Shown: in pieces, positions 29,126-36,001 of the stretch
Position numbering within the stretch: position 1 is the first letter of the stretch
How the letters are laid out: every line of letters starts with the position of its first letter
NCBI GenBank assembly: GCA_014656015.1
Contig: BNBP01000007.1
Coordinates: forward strand, 1-64,000
Reading direction: 5' to 3'
DNA: 64,000 nt
From: Streptomyces griseoaurantiacus
GTDB taxonomy: Bacteria; Actinomycetota; Actinomycetes; Streptomycetales; Streptomycetaceae
The notes under the pieces: generated by a model
Database searches by the model: none
Told to the model about the DNA's origin: nothing
The model's input: only the letters and a program-made list of their open reading frames with translations
Translations under genes and position numbers: made by a program

Positions 29126-29199
29126 TGCGCCGCCAGGGACTCGAACCCCGGACCCGCTGATTAAGAGTCAGCTGCTCTAACCAACTGAGCTAGCGGCGC
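29126..29199 (-). tRNA. tRNA-Lys (CUU), copy 3
   Basis: Identical to the copies at 16805 and 18621. Its first ten bases also code for the end and stop codon (TAG) of the upstream protein gene on the same strand. Confidence 0.95.
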
Positions 29200-29837
29200 C
29201 TGCTGACGTCGTAGACCTTAGCACCCTGATCGGCGGGAGGAAAAATCGAAATCCGCACCGCCGGGGAGGCCCCGGCACGGGCCGCCCGCACCGCCGCCCA
29301 CCGCACGGCCTCGGCCCCCGGGAGCCACGGGCGGAGGGTGTCCGGGGCGACCAGCCAGCGCGAGGCCGGCCGCCCGGCGCCCGGCACGGGACGAAGGGCG
29401 GGCACGGTCACGGCGTCGCCCCTGCCGTGGCAGAGCAGCGGCGGCACGGCGCCGTCGCCGCACTCCCCGGCCGTCTTCCCCGCCGTCCCGCCGACCGCCT
29501 CCAGGGCCTTCTCCTCGGCGAGGAGCCGGGGCAGGAGGCGGGCGGTCCCGGGGGCGGTGAACAGCAGCGTCCGCCCCCGGTGGACGGCGACCGGGCCGGA
29601 GCCCGGACCCTCCTCCCACAACCGGTCGAGCAGTCCGCGGCCGAAGACGGCGGGCACGTTCACGATGTCGAAGGCGGTGCCGCAGGGAAGGACGAGGGGC
29701 GCCTCGGGCCGCTCCCGCCAGAGCGCGAGCGTGCTGCGGGGGTACGGGTCGGCCGAGGCCAGCCAGGCGGCGCCCTCCGTGGTGACCCCCGCCACGTCGG
29801 ACCGGTCCGGGTACGGGTGGATGTTCATGGCGTCCAT
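29190..29837 (-). CDS. Degenerate primase/polymerase-like protein
   Basis: A 215-residue protein of a Streptomyces-conserved type that I recall being annotated as bifunctional DNA primase/polymerase N-terminal-like. Pattern: TTEGAAWLASADPYPRSTLALW, LVLPCGTAFDIVNVPAVFGRGLLDRL, PVAVHRGRTLLFTAPGTARLLP. In active prim-pol proteins the FDxxDxD region holds the metal-binding Asp pair; here it is FDIVNVP, so catalysis is unlikely. The stop codon lies inside the downstream tRNA-Lys gene. Start ATG 29837; ATG 29828 is also possible. Function unknown. Confidence 0.55.
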   Translation of the reverse strand: MDAMNIHPYPDRSDVAGVTTEGAAWLASADPYPRSTLALWRERPEAPLVLPCGTAFDIVNVPAVFGRGLLDRLWEEGPGSGPVAVHRGRTLLFTAPGTARLLPRLLAEEKALEAVGGTAGKTAGECGDGAVPPLLCHGRGDAVTVPALRPVPGAGRPASRWLVAPDTLRPWLPGAEAVRWAAVRAARAGASPAVRISIFPPADQGAKVYDVSRRR

Positions 29838-29993: not shown

Positions 29994-30359
29994 TCAGCCC
30001 AGTTCGGACGGGCCCTTGGCCTCCACGCCCCGCATCAGGTTCTGGCCGAACTCCACCATCTTCTTGGCGTAGTCCTCCGTCCACTCCGCCCGCTCGGCGA
30101 TCGCCGCCGCTGTCAGCCGGTCGAACCGGCGCGGGTCCGCGAGCTGTGCCGCCGCGATCGCCTGGTACTCCAGCGCCCGGTCGGCTGCGGCGCGGAACGC
30201 CTGCGTCAGCTCGGTGGCCCGGGACAGCAGGGCGCGTGGATCGTCCATCGACTCCAGGTCGAAGAAGTGTTCGGGATCGGCCGTGGCCTCCGCGGGCTCG
30301 AAGAGCAGGGGCGCGGGGCGTAGCCGCGGTTCGTTCCGGCGCGGCGCGTGCTCCGCCAT
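29994..30359 (-). CDS. Conserved-looking 121-aa protein, unknown
   Basis: A 121-residue soluble protein starting MAEHAPRRNEPRL behind GAGGAGGAG. It contains DPEHFFDLESMDDPRALLSRATELTQAFRAAADRALEYQAIAAAQLADPRRFDRLTAAAIAERAEWTEDYAKKMVEFGQ, which should be mostly helical and could form a coiled-coil or bundle. I do not recognise the family. It follows the helicase gene on the same strand at about 155 bases and may belong to the same locus. Confidence 0.6.
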   Translation of the reverse strand: MAEHAPRRNEPRLRPAPLLFEPAEATADPEHFFDLESMDDPRALLSRATELTQAFRAAADRALEYQAIAAAQLADPRRFDRLTAAAIAERAEWTEDYAKKMVEFGQNLMRGVEAKGPSELG

Positions 30360-30513
30360 GACGTCTCCTCCTCGTACGTCCGATCCCCACCCGGTCGGGA
30401 GAGGGCCACCGTCCATTGTCTCGTGGGCGCGCAAGAGGGCGGGGACCGTCAGGGAGGACCCCGCCCACCCGAGGTTCAATGCGGGGACGGCGCCGGGTGT
30501 TCCCGTGCCCCGG

Positions 30514-31887
30514 TCATCGCGCGTCCCGTACGCGGTGGGCGGCGAGGTGGTCCCAGGTGGTCATCATGGCGTCCCAGCCGTCGGGGAACTTGACCGTGAC
30601 GCCGAGCTGGACCGGTTCCGTGGAGGGGTGGGCGTCGAGGAGGTCGGGGACGCCGGCGCGGCTGACCACGATGCAGGCGTGCCGGTGGCGGGAGGCGAGG
30701 ACGCACAGGCGGCCCGTCTCCAGGTGGAAGGCCGTCGCGTCGGGGCGGCCCGACAGCGGGTGCAGCACGACCGTCACGTCGAACTCGCGGCCCTGAAGAC
30801 GGTTCGCCGTGTCCACCGTGACGTCGGTGACCCCCAGCTCCGCGAGCGCCGCCCGCACGGCCGCCGCCTGGTCGCGGTGGGCGGTGCCGACCGCGATCCG
30901 GTCGGCGGTCAGCGGCACCGGCTGCGCCGCCCGCTCCGAGACCGAGGCCCCCTCGCGGTCGAGCAGCCGGCGGACGACCTTCGCGAGCGCCGCCACCGCC
31001 TCCGGGTCCGTGCGCGGGGTGTGCCGGGCCGGCAGCTCCAGCAGGCCCCAGCCCGCGTGCGCGGCCTCGTCGATCACCGCGTCCGGGCCCGAACCGTCGG
31101 AGGGCACGCCGAACGCGAGCCGCCGGTCGCCGGGGCCGGTGCCGCTGCGGAAGGGCGTGTACGGGTAGAACGCCTCCGAGACCAGCGGCGCCGCCGAGGC
31201 CGGCAGCCGCCAGGACACCGGGAGCCGGTGCTGCGGCAGCTCGGGGTTGTGCGCGAGCAGCGTGCTCACCGCCGAGGCCGAGGGGTCGTACGACAGTCCG
31301 GCCCACTGCTCCGCCCCGACGATCGCGAACGGGTCGAGCTGTCCCGGGTCGCCGACGAACAGGGCCCGCTCGAACAGTCCGGCCACGGCCAGCAGCGCGT
31401 CGGAGCGCATCTGGTACGCCTCGTCGACGATCGCGTGCCGCCACGGCTCCACGCCTTTGACGTGGGCCCACTTGGCGGCCGTGGACAGCACGATGTCCAT
31501 GCCCGCGAGGTCGCCCGCCTTCGCGGACTTGCGGACGCCGGGCAGCTCGTCGAGCGCCTTGTCGTAGGGGTCGGCGTCGTTGCTGTGCAGCCGGCCCACC
31601 GCCGCGTCCGGGTTCTTCTCGGCGAGCCGCACCACGAGGTCGTCGACCTGGGCGTTGGTCTGGGCGATGACCATGAGCGGGCGCCCGGCGGCGGCCAGTT
31701 CGAGGGCGGCGCGCACGACGAGCGTGGACTTCCCGGCGCCGGGCGGCGAGTCGACGACGACGCCGCGGTGGCCGCCGTGCAGCGTGTCGCGCAGGATCGC
31801 GTCGGTGGCCCGCGCGGCCTCGGCACCGGGGTCGAAGGCGGGGGCCGGGCCGCCGGCGGCGTCGGCCGTGTCGTGCACCGTCGTCAC
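30514..31887 (-). CDS. SF1 (Dna2/UPF1-like) helicase or AAA ATPase
   Basis: A 457-residue ATPase with the SF1 set in order: Walker A SPPGAGKST (47-55), motif Ia VIAQTNAQVDDLVVRL, motif II HAIVDEAYQM (DEAY at 155-158), motif III FVGDPGQLDPF (about 178-187), motif IV LPVSWRLPA, motif V TVDTANRLQGREFDVTVVL and motif VI LASRHRHACIVVSR. The short motif II and GDPGQL fit the Dna2/Upf1 group rather than UvrD. GTG 31887 overlaps the upstream stop (GTGA), with AGGAGG seven bases before it, so it is translated together with the 556-aa protein. Proposed to unwind nucleic acid for the nuclease encoded in the same unit. Confidence 0.8.
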   Translation of the reverse strand: MTTVHDTADAAGGPAPAFDPGAEAARATDAILRDTLHGGHRGVVVDSPPGAGKSTLVVRAALELAAAGRPLMVIAQTNAQVDDLVVRLAEKNPDAAVGRLHSNDADPYDKALDELPGVRKSAKAGDLAGMDIVLSTAAKWAHVKGVEPWRHAIVDEAYQMRSDALLAVAGLFERALFVGDPGQLDPFAIVGAEQWAGLSYDPSASAVSTLLAHNPELPQHRLPVSWRLPASAAPLVSEAFYPYTPFRSGTGPGDRRLAFGVPSDGSGPDAVIDEAAHAGWGLLELPARHTPRTDPEAVAALAKVVRRLLDREGASVSERAAQPVPLTADRIAVGTAHRDQAAAVRAALAELGVTDVTVDTANRLQGREFDVTVVLHPLSGRPDATAFHLETGRLCVLASRHRHACIVVSRAGVPDLLDAHPSTEPVQLGVTVKFPDGWDAMMTTWDHLAAHRVRDAR

Positions 31888-33554
31888 AGGACGTCCTCCT
31901 CGGTCACCGCGTCCGGTCGCTGCGCCGTCGTGGCCGCGGCCTCGCCCGGCGGGCCGCCGTGCGTCCACGGGGTGTCCTCCGGGTCGGGCAGCTTCGCCCC
32001 GCCGCGCTGCTCGTGCTCGAACAGGGTGAAGCAGATCCGGTCGCCCTTCTCGGGGACCGAGCCCTCCTCGGGCTCCCGCCCGCGGCCCATCTTGTCCAGG
32101 ACGCGCACGGTCACCAGCAGGCCCGCGCCGGCCCCGGTCCCGCCGTGGACGTCCTCCCCGTCCGCCCCGTTCTCGTGCGCGGCCCCCGTGTTCTCCTCCA
32201 CCGCCTCGACGAACTCGGCGGACTGCGGTCTGCCGCCCAGTGAGCGGTACACCTTGGCGCGCTCCCCGAGGTGCGGCCGGTCGTCCGTGCGGACGGTCAC
32301 CAGCGGGCGCGGGCTCGGCCGCCTGCTCTCGCTGTAGGCCCGCACCACCTCCACGACCTCGCCCGCGAAGGCCTCCCCGGCCAGCCGTCGCCCGGCCATG
32401 ACCAGCGGGTCGTCCAGCGCCTCCTGGGCGTCGAGCCGGGCCTGCTCGCGCTCGCGCGTGGCGAGCTTGTTGGCCGCGGTGACCGCGTCGTCCAGGCGCG
32501 GCTGCGGGGGCTCCCCGGCCAGGACGCGGTCGCGGTGGCCGGTGAACGACCAGCGGTCCCGGGTCCACCGGTCGGCGACGTGCGCGCCCTCCGGCAGCGC
32601 GCGCAGCAGGTCGAGGCCGTGCCACACCGCGTCCCAGGTGGGCCGCGTACGGCTCTCCACCAGGGCGCGGACGTCCCGCTCGGCGGCGGTGAGTTCGCCG
32701 AGCCGGTCGTCCGCCTCCAGGCCGTCCTCGGCGGCGGCCAGCCGGGTGCGGGCGCGGTCGTAGCGCTCGATGGCGGGGGCGAGCAGCCGGTTGTCGAAGG
32801 CGGGGTCGGTGGCCGGGCCGGCGGGCGGGTGCAGCAACTGCCCGTCGGCGCCCCGGGCCAGCTCCGCGCGCAGGGCCTCCTCGGCGCCGCGCGTGCCCTC
32901 CGGCGGGTCGATCCAGGCGAGCAGCGCGCCCAGGTGCTGGTCCTCCAGATTGCTCTGGCCCGTCGCCCAGTGCCGGGACAGGAGTTCGGTGAGGGCCTGC
33001 AGCAAGGAGGAGCCGGGGACGCGGGCCCGCTCCCCGAAGTGCGTGAGCCACCGGCCGAGCAGTGGCACGTGGGGCGGCGCGGGGTGCGGGGTCTCGGGGT
33101 CCTGCTCGGCGGTGCGGCGGAACCGCATGGAGCGGCCCAGCAGCCGTACGAACTCGATGCCCGCCCGGCTCGGCACCAGGAGCTGCGGCGCGTCCGCGCA
33201 CAGCTCGACCTCGACCTTGACCCGCTTGCCGGTCTCCGGGTCGGTCTCGGTGCGCTCGGCGGGCTCCACGTCGGCCGCGAAGGAGTCGATGTACGGCAGG
33301 ACGACGTCGGCCAGCTCGGTGAGGAAGGCGAAGCGCAGGTCGCGGTCGCGGGGCTGGGGCACGACGAGCAGCCGCGGCGCGTCCCGCTCGGTGCCGACGA
33401 GCGCCCCGAGCGGGGCACCGGCCTCACCGGCGGTGGTCAGCGGCACGAACACCAGCGGCCGCGCGGACACGTGCCGGTGCCGCACGGTCGCCACCACCTG
33501 GGCCCGCCCGCTCCGCACGGCCTCCAGCCGGGCCAGCGTGGACATCAGGGACAT
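31884..33554 (-). CDS. Unknown 556-aa protein between nuclease and helicase
   Basis: A 556-residue soluble protein starting MSLMSTLARLEAVRSGRAQ behind GGAGGT. The N-terminal 180 residues look beta/alpha (ARPLVFVPLTTAGEAGAPLGALVG, LRFAFLTELADVVLPYIDSF); the middle (about 230-400) is helical and charged, including many Arg/Glu pairs and RTRPTWDAVWHGLDLL; the C-terminus (ICFTLFEHEQRG) is mixed. No catalytic motif is apparent and I do not recognise the family. It is linked by a 4-base overlap to the helicase and by a 70-base gap to the nuclease, so it is probably an adaptor or DNA-binding part of the same machine. Confidence 0.65.
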   Translation of the reverse strand: MSLMSTLARLEAVRSGRAQVVATVRHRHVSARPLVFVPLTTAGEAGAPLGALVGTERDAPRLLVVPQPRDRDLRFAFLTELADVVLPYIDSFAADVEPAERTETDPETGKRVKVEVELCADAPQLLVPSRAGIEFVRLLGRSMRFRRTAEQDPETPHPAPPHVPLLGRWLTHFGERARVPGSSLLQALTELLSRHWATGQSNLEDQHLGALLAWIDPPEGTRGAEEALRAELARGADGQLLHPPAGPATDPAFDNRLLAPAIERYDRARTRLAAAEDGLEADDRLGELTAAERDVRALVESRTRPTWDAVWHGLDLLRALPEGAHVADRWTRDRWSFTGHRDRVLAGEPPQPRLDDAVTAANKLATREREQARLDAQEALDDPLVMAGRRLAGEAFAGEVVEVVRAYSESRRPSPRPLVTVRTDDRPHLGERAKVYRSLGGRPQSAEFVEAVEENTGAAHENGADGEDVHGGTGAGAGLLVTVRVLDKMGRGREPEEGSVPEKGDRICFTLFEHEQRGGAKLPDPEDTPWTHGGPPGEAAATTAQRPDAVTEEDVL

Positions 33555-33624
33555 GGGGGGACCTCCTGGGCGACCTCTTCCGCGACCTCCGCGACGACCT
33601 CGCGGGGGCCGCCGTGCGGGGCGG

Positions 33625-34842
33625 TCAGCATGCCGTTCCCCCCTGTCCCGCCGAGGCCGAGGCCAGCGCCTCCGCCCGCAGACCCGCCGCACGGCGCAGC
33701 GCGGCGACCGCCGGGTCCGCCGGGTCCCCCGCCTCGCCGTGCGCCGCCGCGAGCACCTCGTCGACCGTCGTGAGACCGCCCAGCTCCGCCCGGGCGGCCC
33801 GGCCCAGCGCGGTCACGGCGCCCGCCGCACGCGCGCGCTCCCGGCAGTGGAAGGCCAGCTCGCACGTGGACAGGCACTCCGGGGCGTACGTGGCCGGCAC
33901 CGACTCCACGGCGGCGGTCAGCCGCTCCGGCGGCAGGTCGAGGCCGAAGCAGGTGCCCTCGGGGAGCGCCTCGGCGATCTCCTCGATGCGGGTGAGCCGG
34001 GCGAGCTGCCGCCGGGTCACCGAGCGCTGCTTGCGCACGTCGACCGCGGAGGCCGTGGCCAGGTTGGAGAAGTCCTTGGGGCAGACGAGCAGGATCCGGT
34101 GCCGGACCGCGGGCGCGGGGTCCAGCCGCGCCGCGACCTCCTCCAGCGCGAGGACGTACACCGCGGACTGCCGGGCGGCGGCGCCCACCTTCGCCGGGTC
34201 GGCCGAGCCGTCCAGCATCGGGAAGGACTTGATCTCGACGACCGTCCAGGACCCGTCGGGGTGGACGACCACCGCGTCGGGCTCCAGGAACGCGGGGGAG
34301 CCGGCCACGTCGAGCGCGAGCATGGGGTGGTCGAGCAGTGTCCAGCCGCCCGCCTCGACGGCCTCCCGCAGCGCCAGCGCCGTCCGGGCCGTGCGCCCGG
34401 CCGGGCCCACCGCCGTCAGGTCCGGCACGGAGGAGGTCTCCGGGGGCGGGGCGGCCGGGTCCAGCTTCTCGTGCACCAGCCGGAGCAGTTCCGCGCCGCC
34501 GTCCGCCTTGACGCGCTTCTCGAAGGCGTTGCCCCGCGTGAGGGCGAACTGCGACTGCCCGAAGGAGGAGGGGGCGCCCAGCGCGTCCGCGAGCGCCGCC
34601 TTGTCCACCCCCGCGCCGTCGAGCAGTGCCCGCCGGTCGCAGCCGGGGTTGGCGGCCAGCGCGGCGAGCGCGCGGGCGTCCAGCGCCTTGGGCTGCGGCG
34701 GGGGCTCGCCCGGCACGGGGACGGCCGGGCCCCGCAGCTCAGCGAGCAGGTGCCGCAGCGCCGTCCCCCGCGTCCGCGGGGGCGGCACCCGGTTCGGCTC
34801 CCGGCCCGTGGCGGGTTTCGCGCTGTCGGGGAATTCGCTCAC
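33625..34842 (-). CDS. RecB/Cas4-like PD-(D/E)XK nuclease with four-Cys cluster
   Basis: A 405-residue protein. In order: a Cys (ANPGCDRR, about 68), GNAFEKRV (Glu about 108), EPDAVVV (Asp about 189), VVEIKSF (Glu 203, Lys 205), RQSAVYVLAL (Gln 225, Tyr 229), and ECLSTCELAFHC with Cys 323, 327 and 333. Asp, ExK and QxxxY form the RecB-type nuclease core; one Cys before and three after is how Cas4, AddB and Dna2 hold a 4Fe-4S cluster. The start is uncertain: GTG 34842 is used, GTG 34788 has a better ribosome site. Its 5' end overlaps the PAP2 gene. First of the three-gene unit. Confidence 0.75.
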   Translation of the reverse strand: MSEFPDSAKPATGREPNRVPPPRTRGTALRHLLAELRGPAVPVPGEPPPQPKALDARALAALAANPGCDRRALLDGAGVDKAALADALGAPSSFGQSQFALTRGNAFEKRVKADGGAELLRLVHEKLDPAAPPPETSSVPDLTAVGPAGRTARTALALREAVEAGGWTLLDHPMLALDVAGSPAFLEPDAVVVHPDGSWTVVEIKSFPMLDGSADPAKVGAAARQSAVYVLALEEVAARLDPAPAVRHRILLVCPKDFSNLATASAVDVRKQRSVTRRQLARLTRIEEIAEALPEGTCFGLDLPPERLTAAVESVPATYAPECLSTCELAFHCRERARAAGAVTALGRAARAELGGLTTVDEVLAAAHGEAGDPADPAVAALRRAAGLRAEALASASAGQGGTAC

Positions 34843-35752
34843 CCGCCGAAGTCTGGCATCCGCCACTGACAATCGGGGAACCGCCGCCGCGCACGGCCGC
34901 CACCACCGGGGCCAGCCGCGCCGCCGACGCCGTCCGCAGCACCACCGCGAGCCGCATCACCGGTCCGGCCAGCAGCAGACCGACACCCATCACCGCCGCC
35001 CCGGCGACCGCGTCGAGCAGATAGTGGTTCGCGGTGCCCATCACCACGATCGTGGTGAACAGCGGATAGACGACACCCGCGACCTTCATCAGCGGCGAGC
35101 GGCCGTGGCGCCACAGCATGACCCCGCACCACAGCGCCCAGCCCACGTGCAGGCTCGGCATCGCCGCGTACTGGTTCGTCATGCCGCCCATGCCGCGCGG
35201 CGCGCTCGCCTCCCCGCCCCACCAGCCGTAGGAGCTGTACTGCGCCATCGTGTCCACGAAGCCGTGGGCGGGGTGCAGCAGCCGGGGCGGGCAGGTCGGC
35301 AGCAGCGTGAAGCCGATCAGACCGAGGAACGTGGACGTCATCAGCCAGGTGCGGACCATGCGGTACTGCTCCGCGTGCGCGCGGAACATCCACACGAGGA
35401 TCGCGGGGGTGACGATGTAGTGCAGCGAGGCGTACCAGAAGTCGGCCGGGACGCCCAGCCAGGCATGGTCCGTGAACAGCCGGTTGAGCGGGTGCTCGGC
35501 GTTGATGTGGAGGAGCTTCTCGACGCGCAGGATCGCCAGCCCGTGGTCGACGGCACCGGACACGTCCCCGCGCACGATGAGCCGTCCCGCCGAGTACGCG
35601 GCGTACACCACGACGATCAGCGGCAGTTCCGTCCACCAACGGGCACGGGACCTCGAGGTCTTCGCCTCTTGCGGCCGGACCCGCGGGCGCTCCTCGCGCT
35701 CCGGCCCGGGCCGCGGACCCGCCTCGATGCCCGGCGATTCGGTCTGCGCCAT
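34739..35752 (-). CDS. PAP2-family membrane phosphatase
   Basis: A 337-residue membrane protein with about six helices after a charged N-terminus. Active-site motifs of the PAP2/inositolphosphotransferase type are NQYAAMPSLHVGWALW (with Ser-Leu-His) and MGTANHYLLDAVAG (with the His and Asp). Such enzymes dephosphorylate membrane lipids or transfer a phosphate head group. GGGAGGG precedes ATG 35752. The C-terminal 40 residues (GGCQTSAGERIPRQRE and on) are soluble and overlap the 5' part of the downstream nuclease gene by about 100 bases in another frame. Confidence 0.85.
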   Translation of the reverse strand: MAQTESPGIEAGPRPGPEREERPRVRPQEAKTSRSRARWWTELPLIVVVYAAYSAGRLIVRGDVSGAVDHGLAILRVEKLLHINAEHPLNRLFTDHAWLGVPADFWYASLHYIVTPAILVWMFRAHAEQYRMVRTWLMTSTFLGLIGFTLLPTCPPRLLHPAHGFVDTMAQYSSYGWWGGEASAPRGMGGMTNQYAAMPSLHVGWALWCGVMLWRHGRSPLMKVAGVVYPLFTTIVVMGTANHYLLDAVAGAAVMGVGLLLAGPVMRLAVVLRTASAARLAPVVAAVRGGGSPIVSGGCQTSAGERIPRQRETRHGPGAEPGAAPADAGDGAAAPAR

Positions 35753-36001
35753 CCGATCGCCCTCCCCCTTCTCGTCGCTGCGGGTGCCCGATGGCATGAC
35801 GGCCCACCTTACGGTGCCTGAACACGTCGCCGTGGGTGCCCCCGGCACTGCAAGACGCGGAGATCGCGTTCCGGGTTGCCCGTACGGGCCGCCCGGAGGC
35901 GGCCGGAGGCCCTTCGACAGGGTGCGCGATGATGGAAGAAGCCGCCTCTTCTTTTGTCTCGGAATCCCGCCCCGGATTCTTTGTCTCGGAAGGTCCCTCT
36001 C

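Follow-up and report, generated by a model that had tools for sequence, protein, structure and literature searches.

A three-gene helicase-nuclease unit of actinomycetes that parallels the domain order of Dna2 and carries a putative DNA-damage promoter in Streptomyces

Three neighboring genes in a 64-kb stretch of Streptomyces griseoaurantiacus DNA (the window) probably encode one helicase-nuclease machine for broken DNA that is regulated by DNA damage in this genus and has accessory copies in defense. The best reading of the window copy, based on its sequence and on structure models, is a helicase-nuclease for DNA ends that would be a functional analog of Dna2 with Mre11-Rad50. No published account of the trio was found in literature searches, which missed many subscription papers.

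Results

Organization of the trio

The three genes lie on the minus strand in the order nuclease, middle gene, and helicase, and they form one unit (Table 1). The nuclease and middle genes are separated by a 70-base gap, and the middle and helicase genes share the 4-base overlap GTGA. The GC content at the third codon position is 0.97–0.98 throughout the trio, the value of real genes in this DNA. Coordinates and strand were reconfirmed, and the original prediction of three genes in one unit with this spacing stands. The trio consists of separate genes in every locus read, and none has the single polypeptide of Dna2. A scan of 297 genomes across the phylum also revealed no fusion of the middle protein to the helicase or the nuclease. 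Of three congeneric loci that were inspected, two have the small gene at the same position downstream of the helicase gene, and a Pfam search gave no match for its product. The Prim-Pol domain protein encoded next is a possible functional partner of the trio. It matches PF09250 with E = 2e-6, above the cut-off, and its place is kept in two of the three congeneric loci.

Table 1. Features of the unit and its surroundings in the 64-kb window
Feature	Position	Strand	Description
RecA-NDp (PafBC-type) DNA-damage promoter, predicted	34850..34872	-	TTGTCAGTG-N8-CAGACT
Nuclease gene	34842-33625	-	GTG start, 405 aa; predicted Cas4/RecB/Dna2-type PD-(D/E)XK
Middle gene	33554-31884	-	556 aa; no family
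Helicase gene	31887-30514	-	457 aa; predicted SF1, Upf1/Dna2 branch
Small downstream gene	29994..30479	-	161 aa, start uncertain; possible extension of unit
Prim-Pol (primase/polymerase) domain gene	29190..29837	-	215 aa; second gene downstream of helicase

The nuclease

The nuclease has four cysteines (C68...C323-x3-C327-x5-C333) in the pattern of iron-sulfur nucleases of the AddB/Cas4/Dna2 type, together with the residues D189, E203-x-K205, Q225, and Y229. C323, C327, and C333 are invariant in 132 homologs, and C68 is found in 128 of them, the remaining four rows being truncated or masked. E203 is retained in 121/132 and K205 in 124/132 homologs. The AF2 model was built from 48 sequences (pLDDT 89.5), and a Foldseek search of the PDB matched it to the Argonaute-associated Cas4 protein ACE1 (E = 4e-4) and further to RecE, MGME1, Exo5, AdnA, Cas4, and Dna2. 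These E-values are modest, but the list of matches is consistent and the LEPD, VEIKS, and Q-x3-Y motifs fit, so the sequence and the model support an iron-sulfur PD-(D/E)XK nuclease of the Cas4/RecB/Dna2 fold. The original prediction of a RecB/Cas4-type nuclease with iron-sulfur cysteines, which had been staked on conservation of the Cys and ExK residues, is borne out on both counts. The protein has no convincing family in Pfam, NCBIfam, PADLOC, or PHROG, and a profile search against PDB chain sequences returned nothing meaningful, its top matches being designed repeat proteins aligned over just 32 residues.

The helicase

The helicase contains the Pfam domains AAA_11/AAA_30/AAA_12, and a profile search against the PDB ranked SMUBP-2 (1e-11), DNA2 (9e-9), and then UPF1 first. 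The sequence supports assignment to the Upf1-like SF1B helicases of the Upf1/Dna2 branch, in agreement with the Dna2/UPF1 type first proposed. The helicase motifs are invariant in homologs, and the Walker A motif is located at residues 47–54. With only ~46 residues ahead of Walker A, the gene lacks the barrel and stalk found before the motor in this branch (PMC4716839). In PADLOC, the helicase gives weak cross-matches to MkoA/MkoC only. None of the three proteins has a UvrD or PDDEXK_1 match in Pfam, and the trio is not a UvrD-nuclease fusion of the AddAB/AdnAB type.

The middle protein

The middle protein had been described as lacking a recognized domain, and no match was found for it in Pfam, NCBIfam, PADLOC, or PHROG; these profile searches did not place it in a named family of unrelated function. 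A profile search against PDB chain sequences gave nothing meaningful. The AF2 model (pLDDT 90.1) has a mixed alpha/beta N-terminal region, long helices at residues 251–391, and a strand-rich C-terminal barrel at residues 395–510, and the tail sequence TPWTHGGPP is near-invariant. Gene order, the piece missing from the helicase, and this secondary structure all agree with a three-way split of Dna2. The model and the analogy make it plausible that the middle protein supplies the barrel and stalk of Dna2. Foldseek searches of the PDB and viral libraries returned generic barrel or chance matches only, and a Dna2/Upf1 barrel was not among the matches listed, so we put this identity forward as a proposal. 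No homologs were found in viral contigs or phage records, and the phylum scan located the protein in Actinomycetes only.

Distribution and co-occurrence

The original prediction held that the unit may be widespread in Streptomyces, and the middle protein was found in 142 of the 150 genomes of the genus (140/147 among good genomes). In a second family, it is present in 37 of 81 genomes. Among 80 genomes of a Nocardia-type genus, the nuclease and the helicase occur in the same set of 33 and the middle protein in 32; in the single exception, the nuclease and helicase pieces are both at contig ends, i.e., broken. The helicase is present wherever the middle protein is present. These data show that the trio genes occur together or not at all. 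This strict co-occurrence rules out the middle protein as an unrelated bystander. The nuclease adjoins the middle gene in 80/80 named loci checked, and the helicase is directly adjacent in about 66 of these 80; in 4, a single gene intervenes. A Micromonospora clade always has the helicase too, but ~37 kb away, and we therefore rejected the idea that some genomes truly lack it. The adjacency of the trio is more than chance, and the comparison of gene neighborhoods does not bear out the concern that the genes are rarely adjacent in other genomes. The main copy has a stable housekeeping synteny in Streptomyces, and Actinomadura, Nonomuraea, and Streptosporangium each keep a stable synteny around the unit as well.

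A predicted DNA-damage promoter

A RecA-NDp-type promoter ends 7 nt upstream of the GTG codon that opens the nuclease gene, so the nuclease mRNA is probably leaderless. Compared with TTGTCRGTG-N8-TANNNT, its -35-type element is exact and its -10 element has one mismatch, and it is the only match with ≤1 mismatch in the window. The promoter is conserved in 16/16 congeneric main loci (15 with one mismatch and 1 with two) and was found in 0/81 other loci, which confines it to the main copies of Streptomyces. PafBC activates DNA-damage genes through the RecA-NDp motif in mycobacteria (PMC6789036), and a Streptomyces gene with this motif is UV-inducible (PMC5087735). A search for the M. smegmatis motif in S. 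venezuelae was negative in a 2022 study, which left the PafBC response in Streptomyces open (PMC9380542). Across the S. griseoaurantiacus genome, the motif has 56 sites compared to 0 for a reversed control pattern. About half of the 50 sites read (L174–L223) are 4–10 nt before a start codon. These close sites include those of recA, uvrA, uvrB, ligA, rarA, pcrA, dinB, and dnaX, whereas the site of ung is at 39 nt. The recA and uvrB genes carry the identical motif and spacing seen at the nuclease gene. The genome therefore appears to have a RecA-NDp/PafBC-type motif regulon, and we infer from the promoter sequence that the window copy belongs to it and is induced by DNA damage. LexA control was rejected, as no GAAC-N4-GTTC element (≤1 mismatch) exists upstream of the nuclease start.

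Two further observations concern these sites. A PAP2 phosphatase open reading frame (34739-35797 in the window) overlaps both the promoter and the nuclease start; in locus L148 (L019), the PAP2 gene is missing at that place and the promoter is still conserved. The motif also occurs upstream of a DUF2397 (Wadjet II JetA-type) gene (L213, contig 66, about 26610), which suggests a defense operon under DNA-damage control.

A fourth gene and SbcCD

In 57 of 82 loci, the nuclease gene is preceded by an unnamed gene of ~260 aa, and the two often overlap by 4 bases. Streptomyces genomes with the main copy alone lack this gene, so it is not universal. SbcCD (Mre11-Rad50) adjoins copies of the unit in three arrangements; the window copy lacks this neighbor. 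It is divergent upstream in Streptomyces and the Nocardia-type genus (L154–L158, L160, L161, and L167; L159 is truncated). In Amycolatopsis/Kibdelosporangium it follows the unit, and Micromonospora sp. CB01531 carries an SbcCD of a different subfamily (about 30% identical) next to its copy. In the divergent class, SbcD is a dedicated second version, about 33% identical to the housekeeping SbcD. On a quick tree with some long branches, the SbcCD label changes 4 times, and at least 2 of these changes are forced.

Some copies are located near the ends of contigs or plasmid records. The SbcCD-linked copy L154 (G567 contig 1, bases 3-10 kb) is <10 kb from the end of a single 8.3-Mb contig, and the Streptomyces plasmid records NZ_CP108489.1 and NZ_CP027023.1 have the middle protein 4-13 kb from an end.

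Accessory copies and loss of the active site

The genome contains a second copy of the unit (L037, contig 41, 44000-62636) that includes the fourth gene. This unit is divergent from pPIWI-RE Z/DinG and PDDEXK genes, with a Type III restriction system and a UvrD-nuclease downstream. Accessory loci were selected as second copies and their defense neighbors are described locus by locus; apart from those of L037, these neighbors include Hma, Wadjet I and II, Type I restriction, GmrSD, AIPR, and RhuM genes. In Micromonospora (L056, L076, and L058), GmrSD-/RhuM-type genes are inserted between the middle and helicase genes. The nuclease and the middle protein have no meaningful PADLOC match and fall in no known anti-phage model. 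The best reading of these neighborhoods is that accessory copies were recruited into defense islands. The original prediction offered repair or action against phage; the promoter favors repair for the window copy, and a defense setting applies to the accessory copies. It did not mention the promoter, the fourth gene, SbcCD, the paralog, or the nuclease-dead copies.

The L037 nuclease has a degenerate active site (E203L and K205R). K205 is replaced by R in 7/7 pPIWI-linked rows, and E203 by L in all but one; two of the seven rows are one locus fetched twice. In a second degenerate clade of seven loci (L065, L070, L092, L099, L109, L113, and L115; Planotetraspora, Microtetraspora, Sinosporangium, Spongiactinospora, and Acrocarpospora), D189 or E203 is lost and all iron-sulfur cysteines are kept. 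Both clades retain the helicase motifs along with the cysteines. The degeneracy of the active site in two clades shows that cutting is not always essential.

Discussion

The three proteins would work as one complex on broken DNA. The helicase motor would travel on single-stranded DNA, with the 5'-3' polarity expected for the Upf1/Dna2 branch. The middle protein would link the motor to the nuclease, possibly as the barrel and stalk of Dna2, and the iron-sulfur nuclease would hold the threaded strand and cut it. In Streptomyces, DNA damage would fire the operon through the RecA-NDp/PafBC-type promoter, and the unit would probably act after SbcCD opens a blocked end. Elsewhere, the unit comes with the small fourth protein and its own SbcCD, and the pPIWI-RE-linked version has kept the motor and the iron-sulfur domain and lost cutting. 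AdnAB-like genes are present elsewhere in this genome, so the trio may have a backup role or a role on special substrates. A fuller version of this reading can be offered only tentatively: an undescribed actinomycete end-processing machine, in effect Dna2 in three genes with a fourth subunit, SbcCD as its partner, and PafBC-type firing in one genus, which was repeatedly captured by defense and has a nuclease-dead form serving pPIWI-RE.

The retention of cysteines and helicase motifs by both clades without catalytic residues would also fit a processor of forks, R-loops, or transcription-replication conflicts, not an end resector, in which the helicase is essential and the nuclease optional. Upf1-branch helicases often work on RNA or RNA:DNA (PMC4716839), pPIWI-RE is a proposed R-loop actor (PMC3702460), a Prim-Pol gene is nearby, and dnaX is also in the regulon. 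However, the recurrent partner SbcCD is an end and hairpin nuclease, the catalytic site is kept in most copies, and the window copy shares its motif with excision and recombination genes. We consider this explanation unlikely. Quite unlikely is a role mainly in defense against phages or plasmids, with the window copy serving as an immunity module fixed in the chromosome that detects invading or cleaved DNA through its damage promoter: this idea draws on the restriction, pPIWI-RE, GmrSD, RhuM, Hma, and Wadjet neighbors of accessory copies, the defense genes inserted in Micromonospora, and the patchy occurrence outside Streptomyces (32/80 and 37/81 genomes), but the main copy is near-universal in its genus, has stable housekeeping synteny there, as does the unit in three other genera, and shares the recA/uvrA/uvrB regulon, and neither the nuclease nor the middle protein has a PADLOC model.

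The end-processing reading finds its closest parallel in Dna2, where a beta-barrel on a two-helix stalk is located between nuclease and helicase (PMC4716839). Both systems pair an iron-sulfur PD-(D/E)XK nuclease with an Upf1-like SF1B helicase in the identical order, with the middle protein in the place of the barrel-stalk. The original contrast between the fused parts of Dna2 and the separate genes seen here is correct, and the gene order matches the Dna2 domain order. Dna2 works with Mre11-Rad50, and SbcCD is a recurrent neighbor of the trio. In contrast to Dna2, the trio is spread over three genes, its nuclease is outside any Pfam family, the middle protein is longer by about 250 residues at its N-terminus, and no N-terminal OB fold was recognized; the proposed match of the middle protein to the barrel/stalk was not confirmed by the fold search.

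AddAB, AdnAB, and RecBCD are bacterial helicase-nucleases for DNA ends. AdnA is among the fold matches of the nuclease, and AddB and Dna2 have an iron-sulfur nuclease in common. In those enzymes, the motors are of the UvrD type (SF1A) and joined to nuclease domains, whereas the motor of the trio is Upf1-type and separate. In the archaeal Mre11-Rad50-HerA-NurA set, a nuclease and an ATPase that are distinct proteins act with Mre11-Rad50 in end resection (PMC4351679, PMC5715905). The trio likewise has these two activities on different proteins. The hexameric FtsK-like translocase HerA and the RNase-H-like nuclease NurA are not homologous to any protein of the trio. ACE1 and Cas4 are the closest solved folds of the nuclease, and ACE1, a Cas4-like iron-sulfur nuclease beside an Argonaute-type system, parallels the pPIWI-RE-linked copies. 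Compared to ACE1 and Cas4, the trio nuclease has ~130 extra residues, and in the main copy it is tied to the middle protein and the helicase, not to Argonaute or Cas1. Accessory units, including the second copy in this genome, are divergent beside the helicase and nuclease genes of the three-gene pPIWI-RE system, but the unit is a separate operon and most copies have no pPIWI-RE neighbor. The 2013 description of pPIWI-RE does not mention Dna2 or Cas4 (PMC3702460).

The linear chromosomes of Streptomyces are unstable, and the genus depends on the repair of double-strand breaks, yet a near-universal, putatively damage-regulated helicase-nuclease in it appears to be undescribed. If the assignment is correct, the unit would be a bacterial counterpart of the eukaryotic Mre11-Rad50/Dna2 and archaeal Mre11-Rad50/HerA-NurA sets, and a core repair unit would be linked to defense islands. 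The unit would also offer a direct test of a possible PafBC-run DNA-damage response in Streptomyces.
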